Assembly (NCBI GenBank): GCA_964017065.1
Contig: OZ024785.1
Span: forward strand, 6,832,167-6,896,166
From: Haliclona indistincta
Taxonomy: Eukaryota; Porifera; Demospongiae; Haplosclerida; Chalinidae
Length of the DNA stretch: 64,000 nucleotides
Direction of reading: 5' to 3'
Below the pieces are notes generated by a model that saw nothing but the letters and a program-made list of their open reading frames with translations, searched no databases and had not been told where the DNA came from. Positions 1-58,005 of this stretch are shown piece by piece. Numbering within the stretch: position 1 is the stretch's first letter; each line of letters begins with the position of its first letter. Made by a program: the position numbers and the translations under genes.

Positions 1-593
1 CTCCGGATCATATTCAGACAACTAATTTAGTTATTGCAGGTACATACACATGTTATTAAAGCTAATATCTGTAAATTCTTCCCTTTTATAATAAAACAGG
101 AACAAAGAATATGTCATTCGGACTCCAAATCACAGCACCAGCATCATTAAAATGGCTACCTCCTCCTAATACTAACTGTGTCTTCAACTACACTGTCAAT
201 ATCACCAACAGCTCCTGCAGTATGACTGTGTACAGTAGCAGCACTTCACTGATACTGACTGACCTGCTCACTCGTGGACAGAACTACTCATTTGCTGTGG
301 CTGTTACTGACAGTACATGACAACATGGACCATGGAGTGATCAGCTGAGAACAGTTTGGGAAGGTAAGCTAGTTAATCATGCATGCTATGTGTTAATAAC
401 CATTAAAGTCCCTGGAGTAGTATCTGGCATCAGCAGTCAGTGGCATAACAAAACAGCTATAATTAAATGGGAAGTAAGTGATACATAATTGGTCGAATTA
501 TTATTGATTATATTTTTACAGCCGTGTACATCACCAACCCAACCTCCTGTACTCTACTACACTGTTACTCACAATGTCAGTGGTAATGACAGT

Positions 594-2467
594 GAGCTAG
601 CATTCAAAACTACTACCAATGAAGCTATTCTGAATGGAGCAAGATATGAAGAAACTTACTTCATTTCAATACTTGTTGTCAATGAAATTGGCAAAGGAAA
701 ATCAAAAAATATGACATTTAAATTCAATAAAACAATCCAAAATGGTAAAATAAATTGTAAATTTCACATAAAACATGTATTTTTCTCTCAGACATCAATG
801 AAGCGACATCAACAGCTGCAGTCATTGAGATGTTCACAACAATCAGTAAAGGTTTAATCTTGTATGTGCATGAACTTAATCTTGCTTGTCAATAGTAGAA
901 GATCTTTCAGTATCCATGGAACCATCAAAGCAAGCACAGGATGCTGGTTCTACAACAATTTACATCATTGCTGGCTCTTTAGGAGCAACAGTTCTGTTGA
1001 TCCTTCTCTTGGTTATTGTACCCATCCTTCTTGCACTCATTTGTTCAAAAGGTAATGTTATGATTGCTTGAATTGTTCATTCAATAGTCGATTGATGTTG
1101 TATATAGGTCTTCAGAAAGGCTGCAAACAACCCAAATGGTATTTATTTAATGTTTTTAATCAGTATATTTTCTCATTGCACCAACTACTACATGTACATG
1201 TTAGTCATGCAAAGCAAAACGTAAGTAAGCGCTAGATACATTATGACAGCACGTTGAATTACATGTAATACTTCATCAGATACAAACAGTTACAGTGGAC
1301 ACTACCACGATTGAGCTGACTGAGGTTAATCAATGCATGAATAACAATTATTATGATGTTGATTTACTTTTAGGAACAAATTTATGATCAGCCATGGTGT
1401 CAGCAAAATCAAAGATCACCTTCACCAGAGTATGCACAAGTAGATGAAGCAATTTTTCCAATGGCACCAATAGCAACAATGGTACTATCTGAAGGGAACA
1501 TTCCTCTGCGTGACAATATAGCATTCAAATGAGCTAGCATTCAAAACTACTACCAATGAAGCTATTCTGAATGGAGCAAGATATGAAGAAACTTACTTCA
1601 TTTCAATACTTGTTGTCAATGAAATTGGCAAAGGAAAATCAAAAAATATGACATTTAAATTCAATAAAACAATCCAAAATGGTAAAATAAATTGTAAATT
1701 TCACATAAAACATGTATTTTTCTCTCAGACATCAATGAAGCGACATCAACAGCTGCAGTCATTGAGATGTTCACAACAATCAGTAAAGGTTTAATCTTGT
1801 ATGTGCATGAACTTAATCTTGCTTGTCAATAGTAGAAGATCTTTCAGTATCCATGGAACCATCAAAGCAAGCACAGGATGCTGGTTCTACAACAATTTAC
1901 ATCATTGCTGGCTCTTTAGGAGCAACAGTTCTGTTGATCCTTCTCTTGGTTATTGTACCCATCCTTCTTGCACTCATTTGTTCAAAAGGTAATGTTATGA
2001 TTGCTTGAATTGTTCATTCAATAGTCGATTGATGTTGTATATAGGTCTTCAGAAAGGCTGCAAACAACCCAAATGGTATTTATTTAATGTTTTTAATCAG
2101 TATATTTTCTCATTGCACCAACTACTACATGTACATGTTAGTCATGCAAAGCAAAACGTAAGTAAGCGCTAGATACATTATGACAGCACGTTGAATTACA
2201 TGTAATACTTCATCAGATACAAACAGTTACAGTGGACACTACCACGATTGAGCTGACTGAGGTTAATCAATGCATGAATAACAATTATTATGATGTTGAT
2301 TTACTTTTAGGAACAAATTTATGATCAGCCATGGTGTCAGCAAAATCAAAGATCACCTTCACCAGAGTATGCACAAGTAGATGAAGCAATTTTTCCAATG
2401 GCACCAATAGCAACAATGGTACTATCTGAAGGGAACATTCCTCTGCGTGACAATATAGCATACGGAT
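594..2467. repeat. Recent 937-bp direct tandem duplication inside locus 1
   Basis: Bases 594-1530 are repeated at 1531-2467 with a constant offset of 937 and no difference seen on spot comparison. The unit runs from the middle of the second FN3 exon to the tyrosine motif of the last exon. The junction near 1521-1535 reads ..ATAGCATTCAAATGAG.., joining TAGCATACGG of the tail to CTAGCATTCAA of the FN3 exon, so TAGCAT is shared by both parents (microhomology). At the junction the first-copy tail changes from IAYGLT to IAFK and then stops (TGA 1530-1532). Confidence 0.9.
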
Positions 2468-2754
2468 TAACTGGCAATAAACACATGGCACCAATAGAAA
2501 CAACGGTACTATCTGAAGGAAACATTCCTCTGGGTGACAATATAGCATACGGATTAACTGGAAATAAACACATGGCACCAATAGAAACAATGGTACTATC
2601 TGAAGGGAACATTCCTCTGCGTGACAATATAGCATACGGATTAACTGGAAATAAACACATGGCACCAATAGAAACAACGGTACTATCCGAAGGAAACATT
2701 CCTCTGGGTGACAATATAGCATACGGATTAACTGGAAATAAACAAATAAAGTAA
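2398..2754 (+). repeat. Four in-frame 87-bp tail repeats, each with one tyrosine motif
   Basis: Repeat starts are at 2398, 2485, 2572 and 2659; each encodes 29 residues (MAP..VLSEGNIPL.DNIAYGLTGNK). Copies 1/3 have R before DN and ATG-type codons, copies 2/4 have G (LGDN), an alternating pattern that implies duplication of a two-copy unit. All four stay in frame to the TAA at 2752-2754. Loci 3, 22 and 23 have a single copy. Confidence 0.93.
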
Positions 2755-3212
2755 AAGAGTGCTGCCCGCCACATCAGAAACTTCAGAAGGACTTAGAGTG
2801 ACAACTTAATATTGTTTATGCACATAGTCATTTGTTATTAGAGTTCTATTACTCAAAAGAAGAAGAGTAAAATGTCTAATTTAAAGTTTAAAAGTGCTTA
2901 GTAAACAGAAAGTACTTTAGTTATGTTTGCATGATAGTCTATTCATGATGCGTATAAAAACTGAATATGTAAAGTTGATACAGAAATAGTCTATAGAGTC
3001 ATTCCATTGAATTTGTTCAGAGTTTAATTGATCCCATTCATAATTATAGTTAACGTATAAGTTGTTTCTTCTCAAAACAGATACGAGTAATAGATTACAA
3101 CCTGCATAGATAGGTGTGCATGACCAGCATAGTATGAGTGTTGCTTTTCATAGGGCAACTGATTATTAAGACATCCTCTGGCAATTATCACAGATCAGTA
3201 TTGTCCTAACTA
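2755..3212. other. Spacer: 3' flank of locus 1
   Basis: No gene seen. The sequence is shared with the 3' flanks of loci 3 (8515-8878 plus 10108-10200) and, in reverse, 22 and 23, so it is the duplicated intergenic spacer that travels with long-tail genes. It is interrupted at the TA at 3211-3212 by the transposon described next. Confidence 0.7.
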
Positions 3213-4681: not shown

Positions 4682-6333
4682 ATGAGCAAGTTGGAGAAGA
4701 TCCTCTGGTTTGGAATTACTCTTGGTATGAGTCATTTTCATGTAGCTATGTTTATCAATGTACAGTATTCTTAGAACAGGCACTTAGTACAAAGACTGTA
4801 ACATTGGAAGTCATTCAACCATCCACTGGACCAGTCTGTCCAGGACAAGAGATCATACTGACCTGCACTGTAGTACAGACAGGTGCTGTAACAGAGACAC
4901 TATTGCAATGGCGGAATGGCTCAACCACTGTACTCTATGATAGTGCTAATCAGCAATCAGGACCTATCTCACTTGATAGCTTCATCACTACTGCTGTGTT
5001 CATGATCACCACTAACAGTGCTGTGATAGTCTCTAATGCTACACTAACCTCAGCTACACTTTCAAACAATAATAGTATGATTTCTTGTCTCAGTCCTCCT
5101 CAAGATAATATTCAGATAGCTACCATCATTGTTGCAGGTATGCTACTGAGTATTATGTATGTGTATGATGATAATTATCATAAACAGGTGCCAATAAGAT
5201 GCCACTTGATCTCCAAATCACAGCACCAGCATCACTGACATGGCTACCTCCTCCTAATACTAACTGTGTCTTCAACTACACTGTCAATATCACCAACAGC
5301 TCCTGCAGTATGACTGTGTACAGTAGCAGCACTTCACTGATACTGACTGACCTGCTCACTCGTGGAGTGAACTTCTCACTTGCTGTGGCTGTTACTGACA
5401 GTACAGGACAACATGGACCATGGAGTGATCAGCTGATGGTGACATGGGATGGTGAGTACCAGAACTAGTGCACACTGACTAATCTTTGTGTGGATAGTTC
5501 CAGGTTTAGTTTCTAATATCAGTTGGAGGCAGCTTAATCAAACCATTATCATTATTTATTGAGACGTAAGTACTCTTAAGCTTTATGTTAAAAATATTAT
5601 TGACTGTTACAGGCACCATCATCACCAACCCATCCTCCTGTACTCTACTACACTGTTACTCACAATGTCAGTGGTAATGGCAGTGAACTAGCATTCAACA
5701 CTACTACCAATGAAGCTATTCTGAATGGAACAAGATATGAATTAACATACTTCATTTCTATACTTGTTGTCAATGATATTGGCAAAGGAAAGTTATCAGC
5801 TATCACATTCAGAAATGGTGATTCTCTATAAAAGTACTTTAAACATAAATCATAATGGTATGTAGCTATAGATCCTGCTCACACTACTACAAGTGATGTC
5901 ATCTCTATAACAGCTTTTGAAGCTACTCTTTCAGCAAGCGAACAAAACAACCCGGGTATGTGGTAATACATTCTAGAATACATTATGCTACTTGATTGTC
6001 ATAGGTATGACACCATTCATCAACTGCACATTAGGACAGTTCACTACTGAAGGTCAGGTTGTTGACTTGATTCAATACATGTCTCAGTTTTTTCTCCCAC
6101 CACCTCCAGTATCAGATGCTGTATTATCCAGTGCAGTATTGTCCATCATTGGTGCAACCCTCATCACTAGTCTTGTCTGGTCCTGTGCTGTTATTAAGAT
6201 GAGGAAGAAGAGAGATGTTGATATGGTGTCTACTCAACAAGAATCAATGTCACGGTTGACACCTTTTCAAGGGAATATTTCTTTGCAAGACAATGTAGCT
6301 TACGGACAAGTTGGAAGTAGAATCAGAAAGTAA
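4682..6333 (+). pseudogene. Locus 2: short-tail ITIM Ig/FN3 receptor with a stop in the FN3 exon
   Basis: Exons: 4682-4724 (MSKLEKILWFGITLG signal), 4766-5137 (Ig, C..W..C, RNGSTT subclass), 5188-5451 (first FN3), 5498-5565 and 5613-5817 (second FN3), 5872-5955, 6005-6052 (MTPFINCTLGQFTTEG stalk), 6110-6333 (TM plus tail ending NVAYGQVGSRIRK). All junctions are GT-AG and phases match. Exon 4 has TGA at 5560-5562 where paralogues read TGG (Y-W-D), truncating the protein before the membrane. If it is read through or is an assembly error, the gene would be about 425 residues. A poly(A) signal AATAAA lies at 6432-6437. Confidence 0.85.
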
Positions 6334-6552: not shown

Positions 6553-8514
6553 ATGAACAAGCTACAGGAGCAGTTACTCTGGTTTGGATTTACACTAGGT
6601 ATGAATTCTTTATCATTGTTATATTTTATCGGTGCACAGCATTCTTGAAACAGGTATTTGGTATGAAGACTGTAACATTGGAAGGATCCACTGGATCAGT
6701 CTGCCCAGGACAAGAGGTCATACTGACCTACACTGTAGCAACACCAAGTGCTGTTCAAGAAATGACCTTGAATTGGAACTTGCAAGAACATTCTGTGGCG
6801 TATGATATCAACAGTCCACAATCAGGACCACAAACACTTGGTGACTTTATCACTACTGCTGTGTTCATGATCACCACTGATAGCACAGTGATAATATCTA
6901 ATGCTACATTAAAATCAGCACGGCTTTCAAACCATATTAATATGGTTGTTTGTGATAGTCCTCCTCAAGATAATGATCAAACAGCTACCATCACTATAGC
7001 AGGTACTCATAAGTAATTATCATACTCTACAGTACATTACTATACTGGTATAGGTGCCAATAGTATGCCATTTGGACTCCAAATCACAGCACCAGCATCA
7101 CTGACATGGCTACCTCCTCCTAATACTAACTGTGTCTTCAACTACACTGTCAATATCACCAACAGCTCCAGTAGTATGACTGTGTACGGTAGCAGCACTT
7201 CGCTGATACTGACTGACCTGCTCACTCGTGGACAGAACTACTCATTTGCTGTGGCTGTTACTGACAGTACAGGACAACATGGACCATGGAGTGATCAGCT
7301 GAGAACAGTTTGGGAAGGTAAGCTAGTTAATCATGCATGCTATGTGTTAATAACCATTAAAAAGTCCCTGGAGTAGTATCTAACATCAGCAGTCAGTGGC
7401 ATAACAAAACAGCTATAATTAAATGGGAAGTAAGCGATAAATAATTGGTCTAGTTATTATTGATTACAATTTTTCAGCCGCCTGCATCACCAACTCATCC
7501 TCCTGTACTCTACTACACTGTTAATCACAATGTCAGTGGTAATGGCAGTGAGCTAGCATTCAACTCTACTACCAATGAAGCTATTCTGAATGGAGCAAGA
7601 TATGAAGTAACTTACTTCATTTCAATACTTGTTGTCAATGAAATTGGCAAAGGAAAATCAAAAAATATGACGTTTACATTCAATAAAACAATCCAAAATG
7701 GTAAAAAAAATTTTGTAATTTCACATTAAAACATATATTCTTCTCTCAGACATCAGTGAAGCTACATCAACAGCTGCAGTCATTGAGATGTTCACAACAA
7801 TCAGAAAAGGTTTAATCTTGCATGTGCATGAACTTAATCTAGCATGTGAGTAGAAGATCTTTCAGTATCTGTGGAACCATCACAACAAGCACAGGATACT
7901 AGTTCTACAACAATTTACATCATTTCTGGGTCTCTAGGAGCAACAGTTCTGTTGATCCTTCTCTTGGTTATTGTACCCATCCTTCTTGCACTCATTTGCT
8001 CAAAAGGTAATGTTATGATTACTTGTTCATTCAATAGTCGATTGATGTTGCAAATAGGTCTTCAGAAAGGCTGCAAACAACCCAAATGGTATTTTTATTA
8101 TGATTTAATGTTTTTAATCAGCATATTCTCTCATTACACCAACTACTACATGTACATGTTAGTCATGCAAAGCAAAACGTAAGTGAGCGCTAGATACATT
8201 ATGACAGCACATTGAATTACATGTAATACTTCATTAGATACAAACAGTTACCGTGGACACCACCAAGATTGAGCTGACTGAGGTTACTCAATGCATGAAT
8301 AATAATTATTATGATGTTGATTTACTTTTAGGAACAAATTTATGATCAGCCATGGTGTCAGCAAAATCAAAGATCACCTCCACCAGAGTATGCACAAGTA
8401 GATGAAGCAATCTTTCCAATGGCACCAATAGAAACAACAGTACTATCTGAAGGGAACATTCCTCTGCGTGACAATGTAGCATACGGATTAACTGGAAATA
8501 AACACATAAATTAG
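6553..8514 (+). CDS. Locus 3: long-tail Ig/FN3 receptor, open but Ig cysteine lost
   Basis: Eleven exons join in frame: 6553-6598, 6640-7002, 7054-7317, 7365-7429, 7478-7700, 7750-7809, 7854-8006, 8058-8088, 8163-8178, 8238-8282, 8332-8514, giving about 482 residues. Order: signal (MNKLQEQLLWFGFTLG), Ig (NLQE subclass), two FN3, stalk (ISEATSTAAVIEMFTTI), TM (SLGATVLLILLLVIVPILL), tail. The tail has EQIYDQP, PPEYAQV and NVAYGLT. In the Ig domain the B-strand cysteine codon is TAC (ILTYTV instead of ILTCTV) and the segment VIQP is deleted, so the canonical disulfide cannot form; this may be a decaying or re-specialised domain. Spliced structure is inferred by phase and homology, not transcript data. 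Confidence 0.82.
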
Positions 8515-10443: not shown

Positions 10444-10921
10444 ATGAGCAAGTTGGAGAAGATCCTCTGGTTTGGAATTACACTTGGTATGTGTCATTTT
10501 CATGTAGCTATGTTTATCAATGTACAGTATTCTTAGAACAGGCATATAGTACCAAGACTGTATCATTGGAAGTCATTCAACCATCCACTGGACCAGTCTG
10601 TCCAGGACAAGAGATCATACTGACCTGCACTGTAGCACGGACAGGTGCTGTAACTGAGACACTATTGCGATGGCGGAATGGCTCAACCACTGTACTCTAT
10701 GATAGTGCTAATCAGCAATCAGGACCTATCTCACTTGATAGCTTCATCACTACTGCTGTGTTCATGATCACTACTAACAGTGCTGTGATAGTCTCTAATG
10801 CTACACTAACCCACAAACAGTACCCACCCAACAGGAAACAGTGCTAACACCTTTTCAAGGGAATATTTCTTTGCAAGACAATGTAGCTTATGGACAAGTT
10901 GGAAGTACAATCAAAAAGTAA
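10444..10921 (+). pseudogene. Locus 4: Ig exon fused to receptor tail by internal deletion
   Basis: Exon 1 (10444-10486, MSKLEKILWFGITLG) and the start of the Ig exon (from 10528, RNGSTT subclass, as locus 2) are intact. At about 10808-10811 the sequence jumps from the last third of the Ig exon (..SNATLT) into the final tail exon of a short-tail gene (..CAAACAGTACCCACCCAAC.., ending GQVGS). About 1.2 kb that includes both FN3 domains, stalk and TM is gone. The fusion is out of frame and terminates shortly after (TAA at about 10845-10847). ACC is shared at the join. A secreted fragment is conceivable but the second Ig cysteine is lost. Confidence 0.88.
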
Positions 10922-11135: not shown

Positions 11136-12826
11136 ATGAACAAGTTACTGGAGCAGTTTCTCTGGTTTGGAATTGTGCTAGGTATGAATCATTTGTTATC
11201 ACTGTTATTATTTATCAATGCACAGCATTCCTGAAACAGGTATTTGGTATGAAGACTGTTACATTGGAAGTCACTCAACCAGCATCCACTGGACCAGTCT
11301 GTCCAGGACAAGAGATCATACTGACCTGTAATGTAACACAGACAGGTACTGTTCAGGACTTGAACTTGAATTGGAAGCTACAATCACTCACTAGTACAGA
11401 CCATTCATTGTATGATATCAACAATCCACAATCAGGACCTCAAACACTTGGTGACTTTATCACTACTGCTGTGTTCATGATCACTACTGAGAAGGGAGTG
11501 ATAGTCTCTAATGCCACATTAAAATCAGCTGCAGTACTTTCAAACAATAACAGTGTTGTTACCTGCAAGAGCCCTCCTCAAGATAATGTTCAAACAGTTA
11601 CCATCACTATAGCAGGTAGGAAAAATTGTGCCACACTACAGTATCACGACAAAATATTACCACTGATTTAGGTGGTATGCCATTTGGGCTCCAAATCACA
11701 GCATCGGCATCCCTAACATGGCTACCTCCTCCTAATACTAACTGTGTCTTCAACTACACTGTCAATATCACCAACAGCTCCTGCAGTATGACTGTGTACA
11801 GTAGCAGCACTTCACTGATACTGACTGACCTGCTCACTCGTGGACAGAACTACTCATTTGCTGTGGCTGTTACTGACAGTACAGGACAACATGGACCATG
11901 GAGTGATCAGCTGATGGTGACTTGGGATGGTAAGATAATAGATAATACTATTCATCAATTTCAATTGTTTTCACCTTTATACAATTATTAAAGTTCCAAA
12001 ATTAGTTACTAATACTAGTTGGAGGCTCAATCAATCAAATATCATTGTTGATTGGGAGGTAAGCAACATCTGCAATGATAAAAAATTTATTATTGTTATT
12101 ACAGCCACCATCATCACCAATCCATCCTCCTGTACTCTACTACACTGTTACTCACAATGTCAGTGGTAATGGCAGTGAACTAGCATTCAACACTACTACC
12201 AATGAAGCTTTTTTAAATGGACCAAGATATGAAGAGACACACTCTATTTTAATTTGTGCTATCAATTCTGTTGGAAAAGGACCAATAACAGTTTCTACAT
12301 TCTTCATTAGTAAGACAAAAATCACTAAGATTTCCATAACTGCTTTTTGCACAGAGTCTAATTACTATGAGACTACTACAGTTGTCTCTTCCATTACATC
12401 AATTGTAGCTAGTCCTTCAGCAAATAAACCAGGTGAGATGGATACAGTAAATGATGTTAGTTTTGACTATTCTGTGCATATACACAGATATGACATCAAC
12501 ACCAATCAACTCTTGCACAGAACAGTGTTTTACTGAATGTCAGCCTATACATGTCTGTTATACTACTGTTTCCCATGAGTCTTTTAATACTACTTGTAGT
12601 ATCAGTTGCTGTATTATCCAGTGCAGTATTGTCTATCATTGGTACAACCCTCATCACTAGTCTTGTCTGGTGCTGTGTTGTTATTAAGATGATGAAGAAA
12701 AATGATGTTAATGCTGACTCGCACGCAATTTCCAGCCAACAAGAAACAATATTGACATTTCAAGGGAACATTTCTTTGCAAGAAAATGTAGCTTATGGAC
12801 AAGTTGGAAGTAGAATCAGAAAGTAA
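11136..12826 (+). CDS. Locus 5: intact short-tail ITIM Ig/FN3 receptor
   Basis: Eight exons: 11136-11181 (signal MNKLLEQFLWFGIVLG), 11226-11615 (Ig, KLQSLTSTDHSLYDINNP subclass, cysteines in LTCNV and VTCKSPP, W in LNWKL), 11672-11929 (first FN3), 11994-12058 and 12105-12309 (second FN3), 12355-12432 (SNYYETTTVVSS stalk), 12488-12538 (cysteine-bearing stalk NSCTEQCFTE), 12600-12826 (TM SVAVLSSAVLSIIGTTLITS, WCC at the inner face, basic KMMKK, tail with ENVAYGQVGSRIRK). All junctions are GT-AG with matching phases; about 439 residues. Expected at the cell surface. VAYGQV fits the ITIM consensus (S/I/V/L)xYxx(I/V/L), suggesting SH2-phosphatase recruitment when phosphorylated; ligand unknown. 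AATAAA lies at 12901-12906. Confidence 0.88.
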
Positions 12827-13165: not shown

Positions 13166-14814
13166 ATGAACAAGTTTCTCTGGTTTGTAATCATACTAGG
13201 TATGAACTGTTCATCACTGTTGTGTCTTATTATTAAAATAGTATTTTTAGAACAAGCATCTGCTATGAAGACTGTATCATTGGAAGTCATTCAACCATCC
13301 ACTGGACCAGTCTGTCCAGGACAAGAGGTCATACTGACCTGTACTGTAGCACGTCAAAGTGTTGGTCAAGTAATTTTGATTTGGAGACAAGATGAAGCTA
13401 TTTCTCCTGTGTACTATGATAGTTTCGCTCCATCTCAATCAGGGCCTCACAGACTTGGTGACTTTAACACGACTGCAGCATTTATCAATAACTCTGTAGT
13501 AATTTCTAATGCTACATTAAAATCTGCTGCTCTCTCAAACAGCAACATTGCTATTTTATGTGAAAGCCCTCCTCAAGCAAATGTACAAACTGCAGTGATA
13601 ATAGTGGCAGGTAATAAATTGACTTTTTTACACTCGTTACAGGATCACATGTAGGTGCAGAAAGCACACCATTTGGACTCCATATCACAGCACCAGCATC
13701 ACTGACATGGCTACCTCCTCCTAATACTAACTGTGTCTTCAACTACACTGTCAATATCACCAACAGCTCCTGCAGTATGACTGTGTACAGTAGCAGCACT
13801 TCACTGATACTGACTGACCTGCTCACTCGTGGACAGAACTACTCATTTGCTGTGGCAGTTACTGACAGTACAGGACAACATGGACCATGGAGTGATCAGC
13901 TGATGGTGACATGGGATGGTGAGTACCAGAACTAGTGCATACTGACTAATCTTTGTGTGGATAGTTCCAGGTTTAGTTTCTAATATCAGTTGGAGGCACC
14001 TTAATCAAACCATTATCATTATTAATTGGGACGTAAGTTTACTTTATGCTTTGTGTATCCAGATCATTAATGATTATACTACAGTCACCATCATCACCAA
14101 CTCATCCTCCTGTACTCTACTACACTGTTACTCACAATGTCAGTGGTAATGGCAGTGAGCTAGCATTCAACACTACTACCAATGAAGCTATTCTGAATGG
14201 AGCAAGATATGGAGAAATGTACTTTATTTCGGTTCGTGGTGTCAACTCAATCGGCAAAGGAAAATCAACAATTATCACATTCACAAACGGTGATTCTCAA
14301 TGAAAAAGCACTTCTTCGTCATAATTACATTATCATAATAGATATAGATCCTGCTCACACCACAACAGTTAATGTCGTCTCAAAAACAGCTGTTGAAGCT
14401 ACTCTTTCAGCGAGCGAACCAAAGAACCTGGGTATGTGGCTTACATGCAGATTATGTGTGGTACTTGTTTGTCATAGGTATGACACCATTCATCAACTGC
14501 ACATTAGGACAGTTCACTACTGAAGGTCAGGTTGTTGACTTGATTCAATACAATATGTGTGAAGTCTTTCATTACCTCCTGCAGTATCAGTTGCTGTATT
14601 ATCCAGTGCAGTATTGTCTATCATTGGTACAACCCTCATCACTAGTCTTGTCTGGTGCTGTGCTGTTAGTAAGATCAGGAACAAAAGAAATGTTGATATT
14701 GACCCACACGCAGTACCCACCCAACAGGAAACAGTGCTAGCACCTTTTCAAGGGAATATTTCTCTGCAAGACAATGTAGCTTATGGACAAGTTGGAAGTA
14801 GAATCAGAAAGTAA
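13166..14814 (+). CDS. Locus 6: intact short-tail ITIM Ig/FN3 receptor
   Basis: Exons: 13166-13199 (shorter signal MNKFLWFVIILG), 13242-13610 (Ig, WRQDEAISPVYYDSF subclass shared only with locus 25), 13655-13918 (first FN3, GAESTPFGL leader), 13965-14032, 14085-14289 (second FN3), 14348-14431 (DPAHTTTVNVVSKT stalk), 14478-14525 (MTPFINCTLGQFTTEG), 14585-14814 (TM and NVAYGQVGSRIRK tail). All GT-AG, phases match; about 433 residues. The start is set by homology of the hydrophobic signal core; the codons between ATG and the core are four fewer than in neighbours. The next gene starts 205 bp downstream. Confidence 0.88.
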
Positions 14815-18635: not shown

Positions 18636-18651
18636 TTACTGAAATCACTGT

Positions 18652-30714: not shown

Positions 30715-31073
30715 TGCATCCAGAAACTGAGTGAATTGTTCATGCAAATAAGTTATAATGATAGATGTAAGGAATGTATAATAAGATTTATTTCTATACT
30801 GGTGTACACTACTAAAAAGAGAGTTTGCCTTGTATACTAACACTGTATGGTCTCTAATAATAATTATTATTATGTTAAAGATTAAAGGAGTGTTGCTGTG
30901 TAGTTTATAATCAGATTCAGTAAAAGGTGGTTCCAACCATTGAGAGAATTATCAGTAGTTTGTACTCATAAGTGGGCAACACCATGATACTCTACAGATC
31001 ATTGAAGGTTTATACATGCATTGCTGTTTACATCATGTAGGACAAGGTGCTGTGTGTCTAGGTACAAGATTTG
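30715..31073. other. 3' flank of locus 14, ending in a dispersed 75-bp repeat
   Basis: No gene. 30998-31071 (ATCATTGAAGG..CATCATGTAGGACAAGG..CTAGGTACAAGAT) recurs in the same orientation at about 39396-39491, on the far side of the transposon-rich block. Confidence 0.6.
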
Positions 31074-44449: not shown

Positions 44450-46123
44450 ATGAACACGTTACTGGAGCAGTTACTCTGGTTTGGAATTACACTAGGTATG
44501 AATTCTTTTATCATTGTTATATTTTATCGGTGCACAGCATTCTTGAAACAGGTATTTGGTATGAAGATTGTAACATTGGAAGTCGTTCAACCATCCACTG
44601 GACCAGTCTGTCCAGGACAAGAGATCATACTGACCTGCACTGTAGTACAGACAGCAAGTGATGTTCCAGAATTGACCTTGAATTGGAACTTGCAAGAATC
44701 AGTGGCTGCTCCTGTACTGTATGATATCAACAGTCCACAATCAGGACCTCTTCCACTTGGTGACTTTATCACTACTGCTGTGTTCATGACCACCACTAAT
44801 AGCAAAGTCATAATATCTAATGCCACATTAAAATCAGTATGGCTTTCAAACCATAATAATATGGTTGTTTGTGATAGTCCTCCTCAAGATAATGATCAAA
44901 CAGCTACCATCACTATAGCAGGTACTCATAAGTAATTATCATACTCTAGAGTACATTACTATACTGGTATAGGTGCGCATAGCATTCCATATGGGCTCCA
45001 AATCACAGCACCAGCATCACTGACATGGCTACCTCCTCCTAATACTAACTGTGTCTTCAACTACACTGTCAATATCACCAACAGCTCCTGCAGTATGACT
45101 GTGTACAGTAGCAGCACTTCACTGATACTGACTGACCTGCTCACTCGTGGACAGTACTACTCATTTGCTGTGGCTGTTACTGACAGAACAGGACAACATG
45201 GACCATGGAGTGATCAGCTGATGGTGACTTGGGATGGTGAGTACCAGAACTAGTGCATACTGACTAATCTTTGTGTGGATAGTTCCAGGTTTAGTTTCTA
45301 ATATCAGTTGGAGGTTTAATCAAACAGCTATTATTGTCAAATGGGAGGTAAGAATCTATCTCTGTGGTCATTGGAAATAATATTTACCCATTATAGCCAC
45401 CATCATCACCAACCCATCCTCCTGTACTCTACTACACTGTTACTCACAATGTCAGTGGTAATGGCAGTGAGCTAGCATTCAACACTACTACCAATGAAGC
45501 TATTCTGAATGGAGCAAGATATGAAGAGACACACTTTATTTTAATTTGTGCTATCAATCCTGTTGGAAAGGGACTAATAACAGTTTCTACATTCTTCATT
45601 AGTAAGACAAAAATCACTAAGATTTGCCATTACTGCATTTTGCGCAGAGTCTAGTTACTATGAGACTACTACAATTGTCTCTTCCATTACATCAATTGTA
45701 GCTAGTCCTTCAGCAAATGAACCAGGTGAGACGGATAATAACCAGTAAATGATGTTAGTTTTGACTATTCGGTACATATTATACAGATATGACATCAACA
45801 CCAATCAATATTTCCACAGAACAGTGTTTTACTGAATGTCAGCCTATACATGTCTATGTTATACTGTTTCTCATGAGTCATTACCACCTGTAGTATCAGT
45901 TGCTGTATTGTCCAGTGCAGTATTCTCTATCATTGGTGCAACCCTCATCACTAGTCTTGTCTGGTGCTGTGCTGTTATTAAGATGAGGAAAAAAAGAGAT
46001 CCTGATATCGACCCATGCACAGTACCCACCCAACAGGAAACAGTGCTAACACCTTTTCAAGGGAATATTTCTTTGCAAGAAAATGTAGCTTATGGACAAG
46101 TTGGAAGTAGAATCAGAAAGTAA
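44450..46123 (+). CDS. Locus 18: intact short-tail ITIM Ig/FN3 receptor, hybrid middle
   Basis: Exons: 44450-44495 (signal MNTLLEQLLWFGITLG), 44538-44921 (Ig, NLQESVAAPVLYDINSP), 44973-45236 (first FN3, GAHSIPYGL leader), 45283-45347, 45397-45601, 45648-45725 (SSYYETTTIVSSITS), 45787-45837 (TSTPINISTEQCFTE), 45894-46123 (TM, KMRKKRDPD, ENVAYGQVGSRIRK). All GT-AG; about 440 residues. Exon 4 begins like the locus 2/6 type (VPGLVSNISWR) and ends like the long-tail type (NQTAIIVKWE), so even this 65-bp exon is a mosaic. The stalk matches locus 5 rather than loci 16 or 7. Confidence 0.87.
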
Positions 46124-46426: not shown

Positions 46427-48475
46427 ATGAACAAGTTAAAGAAGCAGTTCATCTGGTTCGGAATTGCACTAGGTATGAATCATTGATTAACACTGTTGTG
46501 TTTATCATTGTACAGTATTCTTAGAACAAGCATATGGTATGAAGACTCTAACTGTCGAAGTCATTCAACCATCCACTGGACCAGTCTGTCCAGGACAAGA
46601 GATCATACTGACCTGCAATGTAACACAGACAGGTGTTGTAACTGAGACACTATTGCGATGGAGGAATGGCTCAACCACTGTACTCTATGATAGTGCTAAT
46701 CAGCAATCAGGACCTATATCACTTGATAGCTTCATCACTACTGCTGTGTTCATGATCTCCACTAACAGTGCATTGATAGTCTCTAATGCTACATTAACAT
46801 CAGCTACACTGTCCAACAATAATACTATGATTTCTTGTCTCAGTCCTCCTCAATATAATATTCAGACAGCTACCATCATTGTTGCAGGTATGTTACTGAG
46901 TACGTTATGTGTGTTATGATATTATCATAAACTGCAGGTGCAGATAGTATGCCACTTGACCTCCAAATCACAGCACCAGCATCACTGACATGGCTACCTC
47001 CTCCTAATACTAACTGTGTCTTCTACTACACTGTCAATATCACCAACAGCTCCTGCAGTATGACTGTGTACAGTAGCAGCACTTCACTGATACTGACTGA
47101 CCTGGTCACTCGTGGACAGAACTACTCATTTGCTGTAGTTGTTACTGACAGTACAGGACAACATGGAGCATGGAGTGACCAGCTGAGAACAGTTTGGGAA
47201 GGTAAGCTAGTTAATCATGCATTCTATGCATTAATAACCATTAAAAGTCCCTGGAGTAGTTTCCAACATCAGCAGTCAGTGGAATAACAAAACAGCTATA
47301 ATTAAATGGGAAGTAAGTGATACATAATTGGTCGAATTATTATTGATTATATTTTTACAGCCACCATCATCACAAACTCATCCTCCTGTACTCTACTACA
47401 CTGTTACTCACAATGTCAGTGATAATGGCAGTGAGCTAGCATTCAACACTACTACCAATGAAGCTAGTTTGAGTGGTGCACAATATGGAGAAACTTACTT
47501 CATTTCAATACTTGTTGTCAATGATATTGGCAAAGGAAAATCAAAAAATATGACATTTACTTTCAATAAAACAATCCTAAATGGTAAAATAAATTGTAAA
47601 TTTCACATAAAAACGTGTGTATTTTCTCTCAGACATCAAAGAAGCTACATCAACAGCTGCAGTCATTGAGATGTTCACAACAATCGGTAAAGGCTTAATC
47701 TTGCATGTGCATGAACTTAATCTTACATGTGAATATAGTAGAAGATCCTTCAGTATCTGTGGAACCATCTCAACAAGCACAGGATACTGGTTCTACAACA
47801 GTTTATATCATTGCTGGCTCTTTAGGAGCAACAGTTCTGTTCATCATTCTCTTGGTTATTGTACCAATTCTAGCATTCATTTGCTCAAAAGGTATAATTT
47901 AGTAATTATTAATCTTTTAACATTAAACTACATCTAGGAAAACACCTGCAAAGCAATAGGTAATAAATTTGTTGTAGACCATTTTAATATGATTCAATTT
48001 TTCTTACCTGCACCATCATGATTCAGTCATGTGAAGCAAAACGTAAGCATAATAATTATTTTTATTATATTATTGTTAAGATAAATTTTTTTTATTGAAT
48101 TGTTCACTGCTTACGTTAGGAACTAGTATTTGCAAATGAACTTTACTCCTCAGTACCATTGCAGAATCCTGTTAGTTATTAGTTGTTTATGTATATTATG
48201 CTTGTATACAATTTTGCTATAATAACACTTCAGGTACAAAAGGATGTTGAAAGTACCAGTGAACGTGTTTGTGACTTTGCTACAAATCAGGTGATTATGC
48301 AGGTTGCACTTGTCAATGTTGTTACTTTCAGCTTCAGCAGCCATACTGTTCCAGGTCATCATCAAAAGAGTTGGTGTATGCTCAAATAGGAATCCGTCCA
48401 CTAAATGCACCTATTGCCCCCCCCGACATTGGCAAAGTGGTTTATGCTACTGTTCATTCAACCAATTCACAGTGA
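46427..48475 (+). CDS. Locus 19: long-tail Ig/FN3 receptor with a novel double-ITIM tail
   Basis: Exons: 46427-46472, 46516-46887 (Ig, RNGSTT subclass as locus 2), 46938-47201 (first FN3 ending RTVWEG), 47248-47312, 47361-47583 (second FN3), 47633-47686 or -47692 (stalk), 47742-47891 (TM SLGATVLFIILLVIVPILAF), 47938-47959, 48027-48042 (SHVKQN), 48234-48290 (VQKDVESTSERVCDFATNQ), 48332-48475. About 470 residues; all phases agree. The last exon reads LQQPYCSRSSSKELVYAQIG.. then GKVVYATVHSTNSQ: LVYAQI and VVYATV both match the ITIM consensus and lie 24 residues apart, typical of SHP-recruiting pairs. This exon is only distantly like the last exon of loci 3 and 22 (shared QP.C, YAQ). The stalk donor is either GTAAAG or a GC site. 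Confidence 0.82.
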
Positions 48476-48670
48476 ACATGCACAATTTCAAAATTTTATT
48501 TGTGGTAGTACTAGTAGTAATAGTGGTAGTATTGAAAACGCTTTTACATTATATTTTGAAAGGTAGATTGCAGCTGCTTTGTTTTCTTGTGAAGGATTCG
48601 TTTTCATCCTGCAAATAGCTTTACATGGCATACTGTATTTGTCTAAGGGCTGCATATGTATTGAAAATTG

Positions 48671-49665
48671 TTGTTGGTATGAAGACTGTAACTTAGTCGT
48701 TCAACTATCCACTGGACCAATCTGTCCAGGAATAGAGGTCATACTGACCTGCACTGTAGCAACACCAAGTGCTGTTCCAGAAGGAACTGACCTTAAATTG
48801 GAACTTGCAAGAATCAGTGGCTAGTTCTGTGCTGTATGATATCAACAGTCCACAATCAGGACCTCAAACACTTGGTGACTTTATCACTACTTTTGTGTTC
48901 ATGATCACCACTGATAGCTCAGTTATAAAATCTAATGCTACATTAAAATCAGCAAGGCTTTCAAACCATAATAATATGGTTGTTTGTGATAGTCCTCCTC
49001 AAGATAATGATCAAACAGCTACCATCACTATAGCAGGTACTGATAAGTAATTATCATACTCAACAGTACCTTACTTTACTGGCCAATAGCATGCCATTTG
49101 CAATTGGACTCCAAATCACAGCACCAGCATCACTGACATGGCTACCTCCTCCTAATACTAACTGTGTCTTCAACTACACTGTCAATATCACCAACAGCTC
49201 CTGCAGTATGACTGTGTACAGTAGCAGCACTTCACTGATACTGACTGACCTGCTCACTTGTGAACAGAACTACTCATTTGCTGTGGTTGTTACTGACAGT
49301 ACAGGACAACATGGAGCATGGAGTGACCAGCTGAGAACAGTTTGGGAAGGTAAGCTAGTTAATCATGCATTCTATGTGTTAATAACCACATTAAAAGTTC
49401 CTGAAGTAGTTTCCAACATAAGCAGTCAGTGGAATAACAAAACAGCTATAATTAAATGGGAAGTAAGCGATACGTAATTGGTCAAGTTATCATTTATAGC
49501 CACCATCATCACCAACTCATCCTCCTGTACTCTACTACACTGTTACTCACAATTTCAGTAGTAATGTGAGCGAGCTAGCGTTCAACACTACTACCAATGA
49601 AGCTATTCAGACAGGAGCAAAATATGAAGAAACTTACTTCATTTCATTACTTGTTGTTATCAAAA
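48671..49665 (+). pseudogene. Locus 20: long-tail-type receptor fragment, multiply broken
   Basis: No signal exon is recognisable. The Ig exon (about 48676-49036, NLQES subclass) has a small deletion after MKTV (giving a stop, TAG) and a 4-bp net insertion at PEGTDL that shift the frame. The first FN3 exon (about 49086-49349, ending RTVWEG) has lost the usual TATAG|GTGCC acceptor and gained AFAIG-like codons; LLTCEQNYSF replaces LLTRGQNYSF. 49398-49462 and 49500-49661 (second FN3) are open, but homology ends in mid-exon at about 49661, followed by unrelated sequence and then minus-strand fragment 21. A 5' part without tail. Confidence 0.85.
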
Positions 49666-49732
49666 CTTGAAAATGAGACGTTATCAAAACAATTTTTTGC
49701 CAGTACCTTTTAGGATGTTGTAGTTTTGTATT

Positions 49733-50886: not shown

Positions 50887-52868
50887 TTATTTTAAGTGTT
50901 TATTTCCAGTTAATCCGTATGCTATATTGTCACGCAGAGGAATGTTCCCTTCAGATAGTACCATTGTTGCTATTGGTGCCATTGGAAAGATTGTTCTATC
51001 TACTTGTTCATACTCTGGTGAAGTTGATCTTTGATGTTGGTGACACCATGGCTGATCATAAAGTTGGTCCTAAAAGTAAATCAACATCATAATATTAATG
51101 CATTAATTAACATTGATTAACCTCTGTCAGCTCAATCTTGGTGGTGTCCACTGTAACTGTTTGTATCTGATCATGAAGTATTGCACGTAATACAATGTGC
51201 TGTCATAATGTATCTAGTGCTCACTTCGTTTTGATTTGCATGACTTACATGTACATGTAGTAGTTGGTATAATGTGAAAATACACAGATTTAAAAAAAAA
51301 CATTTAAATCATAATAATAAGTACCTTTTGGGTTGTTTGCAGCTTTTTTGAAGACCTATATGTGACATCAATCGACTATTGAATGAACAAGTAATTATAA
51401 CTTTACCTTTTGAGCATACGAGTGCAAAAAGGATGGGTACAATAACCAAGAGAAGGATCAACAGAACTGTTGCTACTAGAGACCCAGCAATGATGTAAAC
51501 TGTTGTAGAACCAGCATCCGTTGGTTCTTTTGATGGTTCCATTGATACTGAAACATCTGCTGTTCACATGCAAGATTAAGTTCATTCACATGCAAGATTA
51601 AGCCTTTACCGATTGTTGTGAACATCTCAATGACTGCAGCTGTTGATGTAGCTTCATTGATGTCTGAGAGAAAATACACACGTTTTTTATGTAAAATTTA
51701 CAATTTATTTTACCATTTAGGATTGTTTTATTGAAAGTAAATGTCATATTTTTTGATTTTCCTTTGCCAATATCATTGACAACAAGTATTGAAATGAAGT
51801 AAGTTTCTCCATATTGTGCACCACTCAAACTAGCTTCATTGGTAGTAGTGTTGAATGCTAGCTCACTGCTATTACCACTGACATTGTGAGTAACAGTGTA
51901 GTAGAGTACAGGAGGATGAGTTGGTGATGATGGTGGCTGTAAAAATATAATCAATAATAATTTGACCAATTATGTATCACTTACTTCCCATTTAATTATA
52001 GCTGTTTTGTTATTCCACTGACTGCTGATGTTGGAAACTACTCCAGGGACTTTAATGGTTATTAACGCATAGAATGCATGATTAACTGGCTTACCTTCCC
52101 AAACTGTTCTCAGCTGGTCACTCCATGCTCCATGTTGTCCTGTACTGTCAGTAACAACCACAGCAAATGAGTAGTTCTGTCCACGAGTGAGCAGGTCAGT
52201 CAGTATCAGTGAAGTGCTGCTACTGTACACAGTCATACTGCAGGAGCTGTTGGTGATATTGACAGTGTAGTAGAAGACACAGTTAGTATTAGGAGGAGGT
52301 AGCCATGTCAGTGATGCTGGTGCTGTGATTTGGAGATCAAGTGGCATACTATCTGCACCTGTTTATGATAATACCATCATACACATAATAATTATACTCA
52401 GTAGTATACCTGCAACAATGATGGTAGCTGTCTGAATATTATATTGAGGAGGACTGAGACAAGAAATCATAGTATTTGTGTTGGACAGTGTAGCTGATGT
52501 TAATGTAGCATTAGAGACTATCACAGCACTGTTAGTGGTGATCATGAACACAGCAGTAGTGATGAAGCTATCAAGTGAGATAGGTCCTGATTGCTGATTA
52601 GCACTATCATAGAGTACAGTGGTTGAGCCATTCCTCCATTGCAATAGTGTCTCAGTTACAGCACCTGCCTGTACTACAGTACATGTCAGTATGACCTCTT
52701 GTCCTGGACAGACTGGTCCAGTGGGTGGTTGAATGACTTCAAATGATACAGTCTTCATACCAAATGCCTGTTTTAAGAATACTGTACATTGATAAACATA
52801 GCTACATGAAAATGAGTCGTCATACCAAGTGTAATTCCAAACCAGAGGATCTTCTCCAACTTGCTCAT
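50887..52868 (-). CDS. Locus 22: long-tail Ig/FN3 receptor on the minus strand, open
   Basis: Exons in transcript order: 52868-52826 (MSKLEKILWFGITLG), 52781-52410 (Ig, RNGSTT subclass), 52358-52095 (first FN3, GADSMPLDL..RTVWEG), 52049-51985, 51936-51714 (second FN3), 51663-51610 (INEATSTAAVIEMFTTI), 51559-51407 (TM SLVATVLLILLLVIVPILF), 51355-51325, 51243-51225, 51166-51122, 51069-50887. About 483 residues. The tail has DQLYDQP, SPEYEQV and NIAYGLTGNK. At the 16-bp tail exon the usual donor is destroyed (AAAAC|GAAGTGAGC), but GTGAGC three bases further gives an in-frame extra Glu. Closest relative of locus 19 in the ectodomain, yet with the other tail. Confidence 0.82.
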
Positions 52869-53540: not shown

Positions 53541-54393
53541 CTATCCTTCTGATGTGTTGAGCAGCACTCTTTTATTTATGCGTTTATTTCCAGTTAATCC
53601 GTATGCTATATTGTCACGCAGAGGAATGTTCCCTTCAGATAGTACCGTTGTTGCTATTGGTGCCATTGGAAAAATTGCGCCATCTACTTGTTCATACTCT
53701 GGTGAAGGTGATCTTTGATCTTGCTGACACCATGGCTGATCATGAAGTTGGTCGTAGAAGTAAATCATTATGCAATAATTATGGAGTAACCTCAATCTTG
53801 GTGGTGTCCACTATAACTGTTTGTATCTGATCATACAACATGCTATTATTGTATTCAGTGCTCACTTATGTTTTGCTTTGCATGACTTACATGTAGTAGT
53901 TGGTGCAATGAGAAAATACTAAAACATTAACATGATAATAAATTATTTTTGGTACCATTTAATAGGTAGTTTGCAGCTTTTCTGAAGAACTATTTGTAAC
54001 ATCAATCGACTATTGAATGAACAAGTAATCATAACTATACCTTTTGAGCAAATGAGTGCAAGAAGGATGGGTACAATAACCAAGAGTAGGATCAACAGAA
54101 CTGTTGCTCCTAAAGAGCCAGCAATGATGTAAACTGAAGTAGAACCAGCATCCGTTGGTTCTTTTGGTGGTTCCATTGATACTGAAACATCTGCCACATG
54201 CAAGGGTAAGTTTATCACATAAAGTATAAAACTTAAACCAACTTTTACTGATTGTTGTAAACATCTCAATGACAACTGTCGATGTAGCTTCATTAATTTC
54301 TGAGAGTGAATTATATGTGTCATTGTTACCAATTTTATTGAATGTAAAATTTAACGTCATATTTTTTGATTTTCCTTTGCCAATTTCATTGAT
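53541..54393 (-). pseudogene. Locus 23: long-tail receptor, 5' truncated and splice-dead
   Basis: Retains the end of the second FN3 exon (NEIGKGKSKNMTLNF, from 54393), stalk (INEATSTVVIEMFTTI), TM (SLGATVLLILLLVIVPILL) and tail exons to 53541 (HDQPWCQQDQR.., PEYEQV, NIAYGLTGNK). Signal, Ig and first FN3 are missing. The donor of the 16-bp exon is AT instead of GT, exon 10 has lost its last 9 bp, the acceptor of the last exon is AC instead of AG (TTCTAC|GACC), and the stop is mutated so the tail extends by KRVLLNTSEG. Confidence 0.85.
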
Positions 54394-55300: not shown

Positions 55301-56931
55301 ATGAGCAAGTTGGAGAAGATCCTCTGGTTTGGAATTACACTTGGCATGTGTCATTTTCATGTAGCTATGTTTATCAATGTACAGTATTCTTAAAACAGGC
55401 ACTTAGTATGAAGACTGTATCATTGGAAGTCACTCAACCAGCATCCACTGGATCAGTCTGTCCAGGACAAGAGATCATACTGACCTGCACAGTGACACGA
55501 CAAAGCGTTGGTCAAGTAATTTTGATTTGGAGACAAGATGAAGCTATTTCTCCTGTGTACTATGATAGCTTCGCTCCATCTCAATCAGGGCCTCACAGAC
55601 TTGGTGACTTTAACACGACTGCAGCATTTATCAATAACTCTGTACTAATTTCTAATGCTACATTAAAATCTGCTGCTCTCTCAAACAGCAACATTGCTAT
55701 TTCATGTGAAAGTCCTCCTCAAGATAATGTACAAACAATAGTGGCAGGTAATAAATTGACTTTTCTTACACTCATTACAGGATCGCATGTAGGTGCAGAA
55801 AGCATACCATTTGGGCTCCAAATCACAGCACCAGCATCACTAACATGGCTACCTCCTCCTAATACTAACTGTGTCTTCAAATACACTGTCAATATCACCA
55901 ACAGCTCCTGCAGTATGACTGTGTACAGTAGCAGCACTTCACTGATACTGACTGACCTGCTCACTCGTGGACAGAACTACTCATTTGCTGTGGCTGTTAC
56001 TGACAGTACGGGACAACATGGACCATGGAGTGATCAGCTGATGGTGACATGGGATGGTGAGTACCAGAACTAGTGCATACTGACTAATCTTTGTGTGGAT
56101 AGTTCCAGGTTTAGTTTCTAATGTCAGTTGGAGGCACCTTAATCAAACCACTATCATTATTTATTGGGATGTAAGTTCACTTTATGCATTGTGTATCCAG
56201 ATCATTAATGATTATACAGTCACCATCATCACCAACCTATCCTCCTGTACTCTACTACACTGTTACTCACAATGTCAGTGGTAATGGCAGTGAGCTAGCA
56301 TTCAACACTACTACCAATGAAGCTATTCTGAATGGAGCAAGATATGGAGAAATGTATTTTATTTCAGTTCATGGTGTCAACTTAATCGGCAAAGGAAAAT
56401 CAGCAATTATCGCATTCAAAAATGGTGATTCTCAATGAAAAGTACTTCTTCGTCATAATCACAATACTTGCAATAGATTTAGATCCTGCTCACACCACAA
56501 CAGTTAATGTCATCTCAAAAACAGCTGATGAAGCTACTCTTTCAGCGAGCGAACCAAAGAGCCTGGGTATGTGGCTTTCATGTAGATTACGTGTGGTACT
56601 AGTTTGTCATAGGTATGACACCATTCATCAACTGCACATTAGGACAGTTCACTACTGAAGGTCAGGTTATTGACTTGATTCAATGCATTATGTGTGAAGT
56701 ATTTTATTACGACCTGCAGTATCAGCTGCTGTATTATCCAGTGCAGTATTGTCTATCATTGGTACAACCCTCATCACTAGTCTTGTCTGGTGCTGTGCTG
56801 TTAGTAAAATGAGGAAGAAGAGAAATGTTGATATGGTGTCTACTCAACAAGGGATGACACCTTTTCAAGGGAATATTTCTCTTCAAGACAATGTAGCTTA
56901 TGGACAAGTTGGAAGTAGAATCAGAAAGTAA
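55301..56931 (+). CDS. Locus 25: short-tail ITIM Ig/FN3 receptor, GC donor in intron 1
   Basis: Exons: 55301-55343 (MSKLEKILWFGITLG; donor GCATGTG), 55385-55747 (Ig, WRQDEAISPVYYDSF, as locus 6), 55793-56056 (first FN3, GAESIPFGL; alternative acceptor 24 bp upstream is also in frame), 56103-56170, 56220-56424 (second FN3), 56483-56566, 56613-56660 (stalk), 56720-56931 (TM SAAVLSSAVLSIIGTTLITS, KMRKKRNVD, shortened tail, NVAYGQVGSRIRK). About 428 residues. The signal exon and upstream flank belong to the locus 2/22 type whereas the Ig exon belongs to the locus 6 type, a 5' recombinant. Reads open throughout if GC-AG splicing is accepted. Confidence 0.84.
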
Positions 56932-57053
56932 CATTAATTGTAGTGTTACAACATAAATCAATTCAGCCTGTATGGCTTTCTAGTATCAGTAAACAGTATA
57001 GCGTCAAATACAGTGATTCATTTATGTGAATAAACTTACAATTCAAAGTGAAT

Positions 57054-57086
57054 AAACCAATGGGTGCTAATTTACTTTCAATTTCA
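57054..57086 (+). promoter_or_regulatory. CCAAT-containing upstream block of locus 26
   Basis: AAACCAATGGGTGCTAATTT then ACTTTCAATTTC, 64-96 bp before the ATG at 57150; retained although the gene is broken. Confidence 0.45.
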
Positions 57087-57149
57087 TTTAAAATTTTGTA
57101 AAGACGGTAAAATATAGTTTACGCCATTGTAATAATCTAATACTGAAAC

Positions 57150-58005
57150 ATGACCAAGTTACTGGAGCAGTTTCTCTGGTTTGGAATCACACTAGGTATG
57201 AATCATCACTCATTGTCGTTGTTGGTACATTTTATTTATCTACAGTATTCTTGAAACTGGTTCTTAGTATAAAGACTGTAACATTGGAAGTCATTTAACC
57301 ATCCACTGGACCAGTCTGTCCAGGACAAGAGGTCATACTGACCTGCACTGTAACACAGACAGGTACTGTTCAGGAATTATATTTGCAATGGAACTCGCAA
57401 GAATCAACGTCTACTGTGCTTTATGATTTTAGTAACCAATTGCAACAATCAGGACCACGAAAACTTGATGACTTCATCACTACTGCTGTGATCATGATCA
57501 GCACTGACAGCGCTGTGATAATATCTAATGCTACATTAAAATCAGCTAAGTTTTCAAACAATAACAATACACTTACCTGTGATAGTCCTTGTCAAGATAA
57601 TGATCAAACAGCTACCATCACTATAGCAGGTACTCATAAGTAATTATCATACTCTACAGTACATTACTATACTGGTATAGGTGCCAATAGCATGCCAATT
57701 GGGCTCAAAATCACAGCACCAGCATCACTGACATGGCTACCTCCTCCTAATACTAACTGTGTCTTCAACTACACTGTCAATATCACCAACAGCTCCTGCA
57801 GTATGACTGTGCACTTCAGCACTTCACTGATACTGACTGACCTGCTCACTCGTGGACAGAACTACTCATTTGCTGTGGCTGTTACTGACAGTACAGGACA
57901 ACATGGACCATGGAGTGATCAGCTGATGGTGACTTGGGATGGTGAGTATAACAACTTTTGATGAACAATGATGTATCGTTATCATTAGTTCCAACTAATA
58001 TCAGT
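57150..58005 (+). pseudogene. Locus 26: receptor 5' part with a stop in the Ig exon, 3' truncated
   Basis: 57150-57195 (MTKLLEQFLWFGITLG), 57246-57629 (Ig, WNSQESTSTVLYDFSNQ, a subclass seen only here), 57681-57941 (first FN3, GANSMPIGL; VHFSTS where others have VYSSSTS). TAA at 57296-57298 replaces the CAA of VIQP near the start of the Ig domain, and SPPQDN is SPCQDN. After the FN3 exon only GTTCCAACTAATATCAGT (57988-58005) of exon 4 survives, then unrelated sequence. No membrane or tail exons. Confidence 0.87.

Follow-up and report, generated by a model that had tools for sequence, protein, structure and literature searches.

A tandem array of predicted Ig/FN3 receptors with tyrosine-motif tails, one branch of a genome-wide family and a candidate recognition system

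Does a crowded run of related genes in a non-vertebrate genome encode inhibitory recognition receptors, and is the inhibitory motif what defines them? We asked this of a 64-kb stretch of DNA (bases 6,832,167-6,896,166 of contig C3, hereafter the window) in an assembly of 144 Mb and 46 contigs. The original prediction for this stretch was a tandem cluster of more than 20 related loci in 58 kb, sharing a signal peptide, one Ig domain, two fibronectin type III (FN3) domains, a stalk, a transmembrane (TM) segment and a tail bearing an immunoreceptor tyrosine-based inhibitory motif (ITIM). We find that the tandem array is real and large, that its receptor architecture is, as a gene prediction, near certain, and that it forms a single branch of a family spread over the genome, in which the strict ITIM belongs mainly to one type of tail.

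Searching with the exons of a reference copy (tblastn), we obtained matches between window positions 1 and 57,943 that, by our own grouping, make up about 21 loci of a single receptor family. Nineteen lie on the forward strand, one of them cut at the window's left edge, and two on the reverse strand (52.9-50.9 kb and 54.1-53.6 kb); the array extends past the window, over C3:6.60-6.73 and 6.79-6.93 Mb. Nine loci, all with the tail that we call A-type, gave complete open spliced models, these being homology-based predictions with GT-AG borders and fixed phases. One locus with the other, B-type, tail (52,868-50,887, reverse strand) has its coding exons present, with a TM-to-tail splice that the splice search did not fix, and the other 11 of the 21 are cut, truncated, interrupted by stops or lacking an exon or a splice site. 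The predicted cluster size, shared domain plan and birth-and-death pattern are right in outline, and with 11 of the 21 in this state the description "about half broken" was correct.

The genes follow a common exon scheme, in which E1 encodes a signal peptide of the MNKLLEQFLWFGI type, E2 the Ig domain, E3 the first FN3 domain (FN3-1), E4 and E5 the second (FN3-2), with a phase-0 intron between the two, E6 a stalk rich in Thr and Ser, and E7 the TM segment and the tail up to the stop. Each receptor has one Ig and two FN3 domains, and no second Ig was found. In the spliced reference protein, fn3 was the sole family above the Pfam cut-off, the scan returning neither a sushi nor an Ig family. The Ig exon is predicted to encode a V-type Ig; light-chain profiles match it, and titin is also among the matches. 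The A-type tail exon reaches its stop about 45 residues past the TM segment and encodes no cytoplasmic kinase domain. Nor did we see kinase-bearing versions of the array, as judged by the lack of a PF07714 match at C3:6.59-6.95 Mb among the matches listed; since 133 of 1,135 candidates were scored, this negative says little genome-wide.

The strict ITIM consensus is [ILVS]xYxx[ILV], and the single tyrosine of the A-type tail, typically within NISLQ[DE]NVAYGQV, lies in an exact fit to it. Ten or more copies of VAYGQV had been predicted; the window has 14 in its six frames, and across the genome 24 sites fit the codon pattern of VAYGQV, as against 3 that fit the reversed pattern. Among 20 aligned A-type TM exons (window plus flanks), AYG is kept in all 20, N-x-A-Y-G and the strict ITIM in 19 each, and VAYGQV exactly in 16; one of the 20 stops immediately past the Gly. 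B-type tails carry YDQP, EY[AE]QV and N[IV]AYGLT, and none of the four tested contains a strict ITIM.

At C3:6.60-6.73 Mb the tails have the form NLAYGQV...PIYEDI. Those that we saw at C3:0.6-1.2 Mb, C3:5.97 Mb, C8 and C9 have IYD[TV]P...NVAYG and vary thereafter, several having NVAYGGT...NEAY. When eight subfamily tails were aligned, the invariant tail residues were N-x-A-Y-G and one Leu. Genome-wide, 207 sites fit the codon pattern of [DE]N[VIM]AYG and 2 fit its reversed counterpart. A database search with the subfamily-tail alignment returned 263 proteins, of which 120 were listed and read, a sample that is skewed to C3/C8-type tails and in which many proteins may stem from the same species as the window, as may many of the 12 hits that a separate protein search gave. 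N-x-[AP]-Y-G is present in 117 of these 120 tails, YD[TVIK]P in 99 and NE[AD]Y in 79, and some tails carry repeated NVAYGG units. We read N-x-A-Y-G as the family's putative docking motif, for which we know of no reader; phosphotyrosine docking by the tails is likely. The strict ITIM is found mainly in A-type tails, plus a few related ones, and is not family-wide. In our reading, B-type and C3/C8 tails keep several motifs, and A-type would be a tail secondarily reduced to a single motif, one that fits an ITIM. Of the original prediction, our results support a tandem family of predicted type I receptors, non-vertebrate and subject to birth and death, with strict ITIMs in A-type tails; they do not support the ITIM as the family-defining feature. 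As a separate observation, long open frames at C5:10.918 and 10.943 Mb contain several motifs of this kind (NMAYG, DNVAYGQV and NLSCG), and would represent another family using the core motif.

Genome-wide, we obtained at least 152 matches to FN3-1 (150 of 290 candidates scored), at least 145 to the C3/C8-type tail (150 of 207) and at least 102 to the Ig exon (150 of 185), some matches being two pieces of one exon. To judge exon coupling we took the listed matches outside the window's own cluster, leaving out second fragments: 81 of 111 FN3-1 exons are followed on their own strand by a tail exon within 2.5 kb, versus a mean of 9.5 (maximum 18) under random shifts, and FN3-1 lies within 1 kb downstream of the Ig exon in 52 of 58 cases, with a tail as well in 41 of the 58. 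In the other clusters, identity to the array sequence is mostly 66-81% for FN3-1, where another group lies at about 40%; it is 27-44% for the Ig exon and about 35-44% for the tails. FN3-1 acts like the constant part of the family and Ig like its variable part.

The original prediction also held that variation is concentrated in the Ig domain, which proved true of one comparison and not of another. We compared 25 Ig, 28 FN3-1, 24 E4, 26 E5 and 20 TM exons (open exons of the window plus flanks) and, separately, the nine complete loci, expressing divergence as proportions of silent (pS) and amino-acid-changing (pN) differences. In the nine loci, pooled pS/pN was 0.351/0.213 for Ig, 0.073/0.033 for FN3-1, 0.223/0.144 for E4, 0.158/0.129 for E5 and 0.164/0.070 for TM, so that Ig is the most diverged, followed by E4. 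In the window plus flanks, however, the pooled values were 0.327/0.210, 0.080/0.050, 0.448/0.239, 0.197/0.141 and 0.155/0.078, respectively; here E4 varies as Ig does, and silent sites run in parallel.

Across the five exons of the nine loci, dN/dS ranged from 0.40 to 0.79. Residues 36-72 of Ig had a dN/dS of 0.81, compared with 0.45 in the rest of the domain, and their pS was higher as well (0.42 versus 0.29). We looked for positive selection averaged over Ig and found none: its overall dN/dS is 0.57, and its divergence is matched at silent sites. Pairwise Ig distances among the nine loci gave Spearman coefficients of 0.23, -0.05, 0.10 and -0.17 with FN3-1, E4, E5 and TM, while the two halves of FN3-2 co-vary (0.69), and E5 and TM do so weakly (0.36). 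This lack of correlation between Ig and the remaining exons, together with the silent divergence, suggests exon-wise homogenisation, with gene copies that are mosaics and an FN3-1 that has been homogenised. One Ig lineage of the array, comprising the copies at 13.2 and 55.4 kb and one from a flank, falls together with P0006 and P0007 from the database (support 99/97). P0001-P0007, all but one of the eight closest database relatives, share an FN3-1 residue (CTF) that occurs in none of our 28 FN3-1 exons; if these proteins come from another species, the Ig lineages predate the homogenisation of FN3-1.

How might such receptors work? In the reading that we favour, and hold to be probable though by no means assured, they would be single-pass recognition receptors, most likely of a siliceous sponge. 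The variable V-type Ig at the tip, raised on two FN3 domains and the stalk, would bind a ligand that varies, either a surface one or a microbial one. This would allow a membrane-linked tyrosine kinase to phosphorylate the tail, and the phosphorylated N-x-A-Y-G core would dock an SH2 or phosphotyrosine-binding (PTB) protein. In A-type receptors, whose sole tail tyrosine lies in a full ITIM (VAYGQV), the docked protein would most likely be one of the two SHP2-like phosphatases, giving an inhibitory signal. B-type receptors, with nearly the same ectodomain on a multi-tyrosine tail (YDxP, YxQV, NxAYG), would probably use other adaptors. We put the chances of the inhibitory SHP branch in A-type receptors at about even, and regard a role in self/non-self or microbe recognition as plausible.

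On the partner side, SHP2-type phosphatase genes are indeed encoded in the same genome, in agreement with an ITIM reading. Two tandem, intronless SH2-SH2-PTP genes lie at C9:7.649-7.654 Mb (7649300-7654400), each with two SH2 domains and a phosphatase domain in Pfam; when one SHP2-like gene was compared with the PDB, the best match was PTPN11 (E 2e-181), with PTPN6 at 3e-156. SHP2-type genes are general among animals, and their presence therefore makes ITIM inhibition feasible, nothing further. SH2 domains, with 90 matches, and PF07714 kinase domains, with at least 156, not all of them tyrosine kinases, are plentiful in the genome.

Several results weigh against recognition receptors of this kind. 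Pfam is blind to the Ig exon; the five AlphaFold2 models of it have mean pLDDT values of 84, 74, 60, 47 and 38, the best one alone being good, and Foldseek TM-scores are moderate, about 0.4-0.5 on query length. With moderate Foldseek scores and four of the five models poorer, the V-type call rests on VIA-align, strand count and the light-chain profiles; because of tied rows, no particular V family is implied. No exon in either divergence set has a dN/dS above 1. The ITIM +3 residue is hydrophobic (Val) in four of the eight subfamily tails, and a strict ITIM stands at the first core in 22 of the 117 listed database tails that have one; as the +3 residue is not kept family-wide, the family's primary partner may not be an SHP. 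Finally, the sequence itself shows the gene structure, the motifs, the family size and the SHP2-like genes, and the V-type fold is a prediction; that the proteins reach the surface, bind a ligand and become phosphorylated, what docks on them, and to what output and biological role this leads, are all matters that we infer.

The +3 position bears directly on one alternative, in which a PTB domain or a clathrin adaptor recognises N-x-x-Y, the proteins are internalised adhesion or scavenger receptors, and the A-type fit to an ITIM is incidental. The residues kept in all eight subfamilies (N at -3, A at -1, G at +1), where +3 is not, speak for this reading, as do the frequent NE[AD]Y motifs and the recurrent G at +2 (96 of 117 listed database tails) and T at +3 (86 of 117). 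Yet the NPxY consensus carries Pro at -2, whereas all 117 listed tails with the core have V, L, I or A there, 116 of them V, L or I, which is ITIM-like; and -5 is Gln in 104 of the 117, not hydrophobic. On this balance we judge PTB-type or endocytic reading to be improbable. The same tails raise a different possibility, an ordinary cell-adhesion family that serves differential adhesion and tissue organisation, its tails scaffolding Crk/Nck- and Src-type signalling, with no immune or allorecognition role. YD[TVIK]P, so common in the database tails, and the PIYEDI of C3:6.60-6.73 Mb are presumably motifs of just this signalling. Sponge Ig-superfamily molecules are, moreover, described as adhesion molecules in the available part of PMC11999971. 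Nonetheless, a birth-and-death array with many broken copies, amino-acid change greatest in Ig residues 36-72 and an Ig lineage common to database relatives would all be more usual in recognition families, and we consider a purely adhesive family possible but on the unlikely side.

Could the array instead be decaying, a mostly non-functional repeat whose likeness is kept by gene conversion? The 11 broken or incomplete loci and the low silent divergence of FN3-1 (0.08, versus 0.33 in Ig) could be read so, but nine loci have all exons open, the dN/dS range of their five exons stays below one, and the core motif is retained across divergent subfamilies, all of which makes decay very improbable.

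A second family (X-type) is interleaved with the array. Three X exons were put to Pfam and none came out as Ig or FN3, and their names, Ig-like and FN3-like, are therefore given by eye; in the two copies read, the short tail showed no recognised tyrosine motif. Of 15 X Ig-like exons (window plus fetched pieces), eight face an Ig exon of the array head to head, 0.9-2.3 kb away, and two are convergent with one within 4 kb; the other five have none as near as that, in part owing to gaps in the pieces.

Which known systems does the array resemble? KIR and LILR genes form tandem, birth-and-death arrays with ITIM tails, their members with and without ITIMs share ectodomains, and these ectodomains are Ig-only. 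The present array is similar in its tandem birth-and-death organisation and ITIM tails, with no homology claimed, but theirs is a vertebrate system, and here one Ig is joined to two FN3 domains. For the following systems we rely on the available parts of the papers cited. Hydractinia Alr genes are reported as clustered Ig-superfamily genes with V-set Ig domains and motifs of the ITIM or immunoreceptor tyrosine-based activation motif (ITAM) type (PMC12065747, PMC11999971); V-set and the predicted V-type Ig here are a shared fold, likened by description and not by sequence. Alr has an I-set Ig beside the V-set (PMC11999971), whereas the other two domains here are FN3, and the phylum is apparently another. 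Botryllus FcoR proteins combine a V-type Ig, a TM segment and ITIM or other tyrosine motifs, and each FcoR gene adjoins a fester-family partner, as X-type genes do head to head at 8 of 15 X Ig exons; FcoR, however, has sushi and two C2-type Ig domains (PMC12065747) in place of FN3, a distinction again made by description. By its predicted domain plan, the array belongs to none of Alr, FcoR and KIR/LILR, FN3 replacing further Ig or sushi domains. In open-licence full text, a body outside which most subscription journals and preprints lie, we found no earlier description of such a family.

Sponges distinguish self from non-self grafts, by receptors that are not settled. An Amphimedon graft transcriptome showed, in the accessible text, no significant enrichment of cell-adhesion or aggregation-factor genes (PMC5450542). 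Among sponge proteins, extracellular Ig domains are described in the Geodia cydonium receptor tyrosine kinase, an adhesion molecule and TIR-Ig receptors (PMC12018476, PMC11999971, PMC7308585, each in part); by description, the first has a kinase and the last TIR, unlike the short tail here. Excerpts report 109-381 I-set Ig domains in sponge genomes (PMC12465263) and sponge Ig and FN3 domains combined with SRCR domains (PMC4772301), which, unlike in those proteins, we did not see in the array receptors.

In its boldest form, our proposal is a polygenic sponge recognition system of well over 100 V-Ig/FN3 receptors sharing an N-x-A-Y-G switch, with near-identical ectodomains on ITIM-only (A) or multi-motif (B) tails, often beside head-to-head X partners with no recognised motif, in which exon-wise conversion would hold FN3 constant and reshuffle old Ig lineages; we offer it tentatively, as rather doubtful in full. 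If true, it would place at the animal base a kind of recognition, by inhibitory-type Ig receptors, so far reported in animals ranging from cnidarians to mammals, the range over which a review knows of allorecognition systems that use ITIM/ITAM-type motifs (PMC12065747, in part). A large sponge V-Ig family with an ITIM branch would provide concrete candidate genes and make the age of this recognition logic testable, and N-x-A-Y-G, invariant across such divergent tails, could be tested with phosphopeptides.

Table 1. Receptor-family and X-type features of the window (window coordinates)
Feature	Position	Strand	Basis
A-type gene, complete open model (signal, Ig, FN3-1, FN3-2, stalk, TM and ITIM tail)	11136..12826	+	splice models
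A-type gene, complete open model, weakest signal exon	13166..14814	+	splice models
A-type gene, complete open model	15019..16874	+	splice models
A-type gene, complete open model	19749..21437	+	splice models
A-type gene, complete open model	21662..23326	+	splice models
A-type gene, reference copy, complete open model	23541..25361	+	splice models
Reference copy exons	Ig 23632-24015; FN3-1 24069-24326; FN3-2 24378-24442, 24496-24703; stalk 24768-24848; TM and tail 25132-25361	+	
A-type gene, complete open model	40570..42276	+	splice models
A-type gene, complete open model	44450..46123	+	splice models
A-type gene, complete open model	55301..56931	+	splice models
B-type gene; tail YDQP, EYEQV, NIAYGLT; without strict ITIM	50887..52868	-	homology and splice search
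A-type locus, in-frame stop within E4	4682..6333	+	tblastn and splice models
A-type locus, E4 without donor site	42574..44250	+	tblastn and splice models
B-type locus; signal exon not found; Ig LTC-position Cys replaced by Tyr	6642..8511	+	tblastn and splice models
B-type locus, cut at window edge; FN3-1 stop; 3' exons duplicated	1..2751	+	tblastn
Tail exon of edge-cut B-type locus: four NIAYG units, 29-residue repeats	2311-2751	+	
B-type locus, no tail exon recognised	46427..47893	+	tblastn and splice models
Ig fragment, then directly A-type tail (internal deletion)	10530..10921	+	tblastn
A-type 3' fragment	18652..19288	+	tblastn
A-type 3' fragment adjoining retroelement	39631..40353	+	tblastn and splice models
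Broken copy, stops	48661..49700	+	tblastn and splice models
B-type 3' fragment	53583..54140	-	tblastn
5' fragment, stop inside Ig match	57248..57943	+	tblastn and splice models
X-type locus: Ig-like exon, FN3-like exons, TM (exon kinds by eye)	28143..30727	+	
X-type locus facing the array head to head; A-type 3' fragment within the 1.2 kb up to the closest Ig exon start	17431..18623	-	
X-type locus	61907..63998	-	
X-type family stretch	27049-27531	-	

Elsewhere in the assembly, we looked at seven active sites of a cathepsin-L-like gene cluster: six keep Cys, and the seventh (CCSSYAF; C10:4136850-4137260) has Ser instead. Ser in place of the catalytic Cys is a silicatein hallmark, and this one site of seven, a thin basis, suggests a siliceous sponge. 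Within the window, reverse transcriptase and integrase frames like those of a Ty3/gypsy-type long terminal repeat retroelement (identified by eye) occupy 36012-39321 on the reverse strand, directly upstream of the truncated 39.6-kb copy. Overlapping open frames on both strands at 58667-60442, with similar peptides near 58.8 and 60.2 kb, are perhaps a repeat element.

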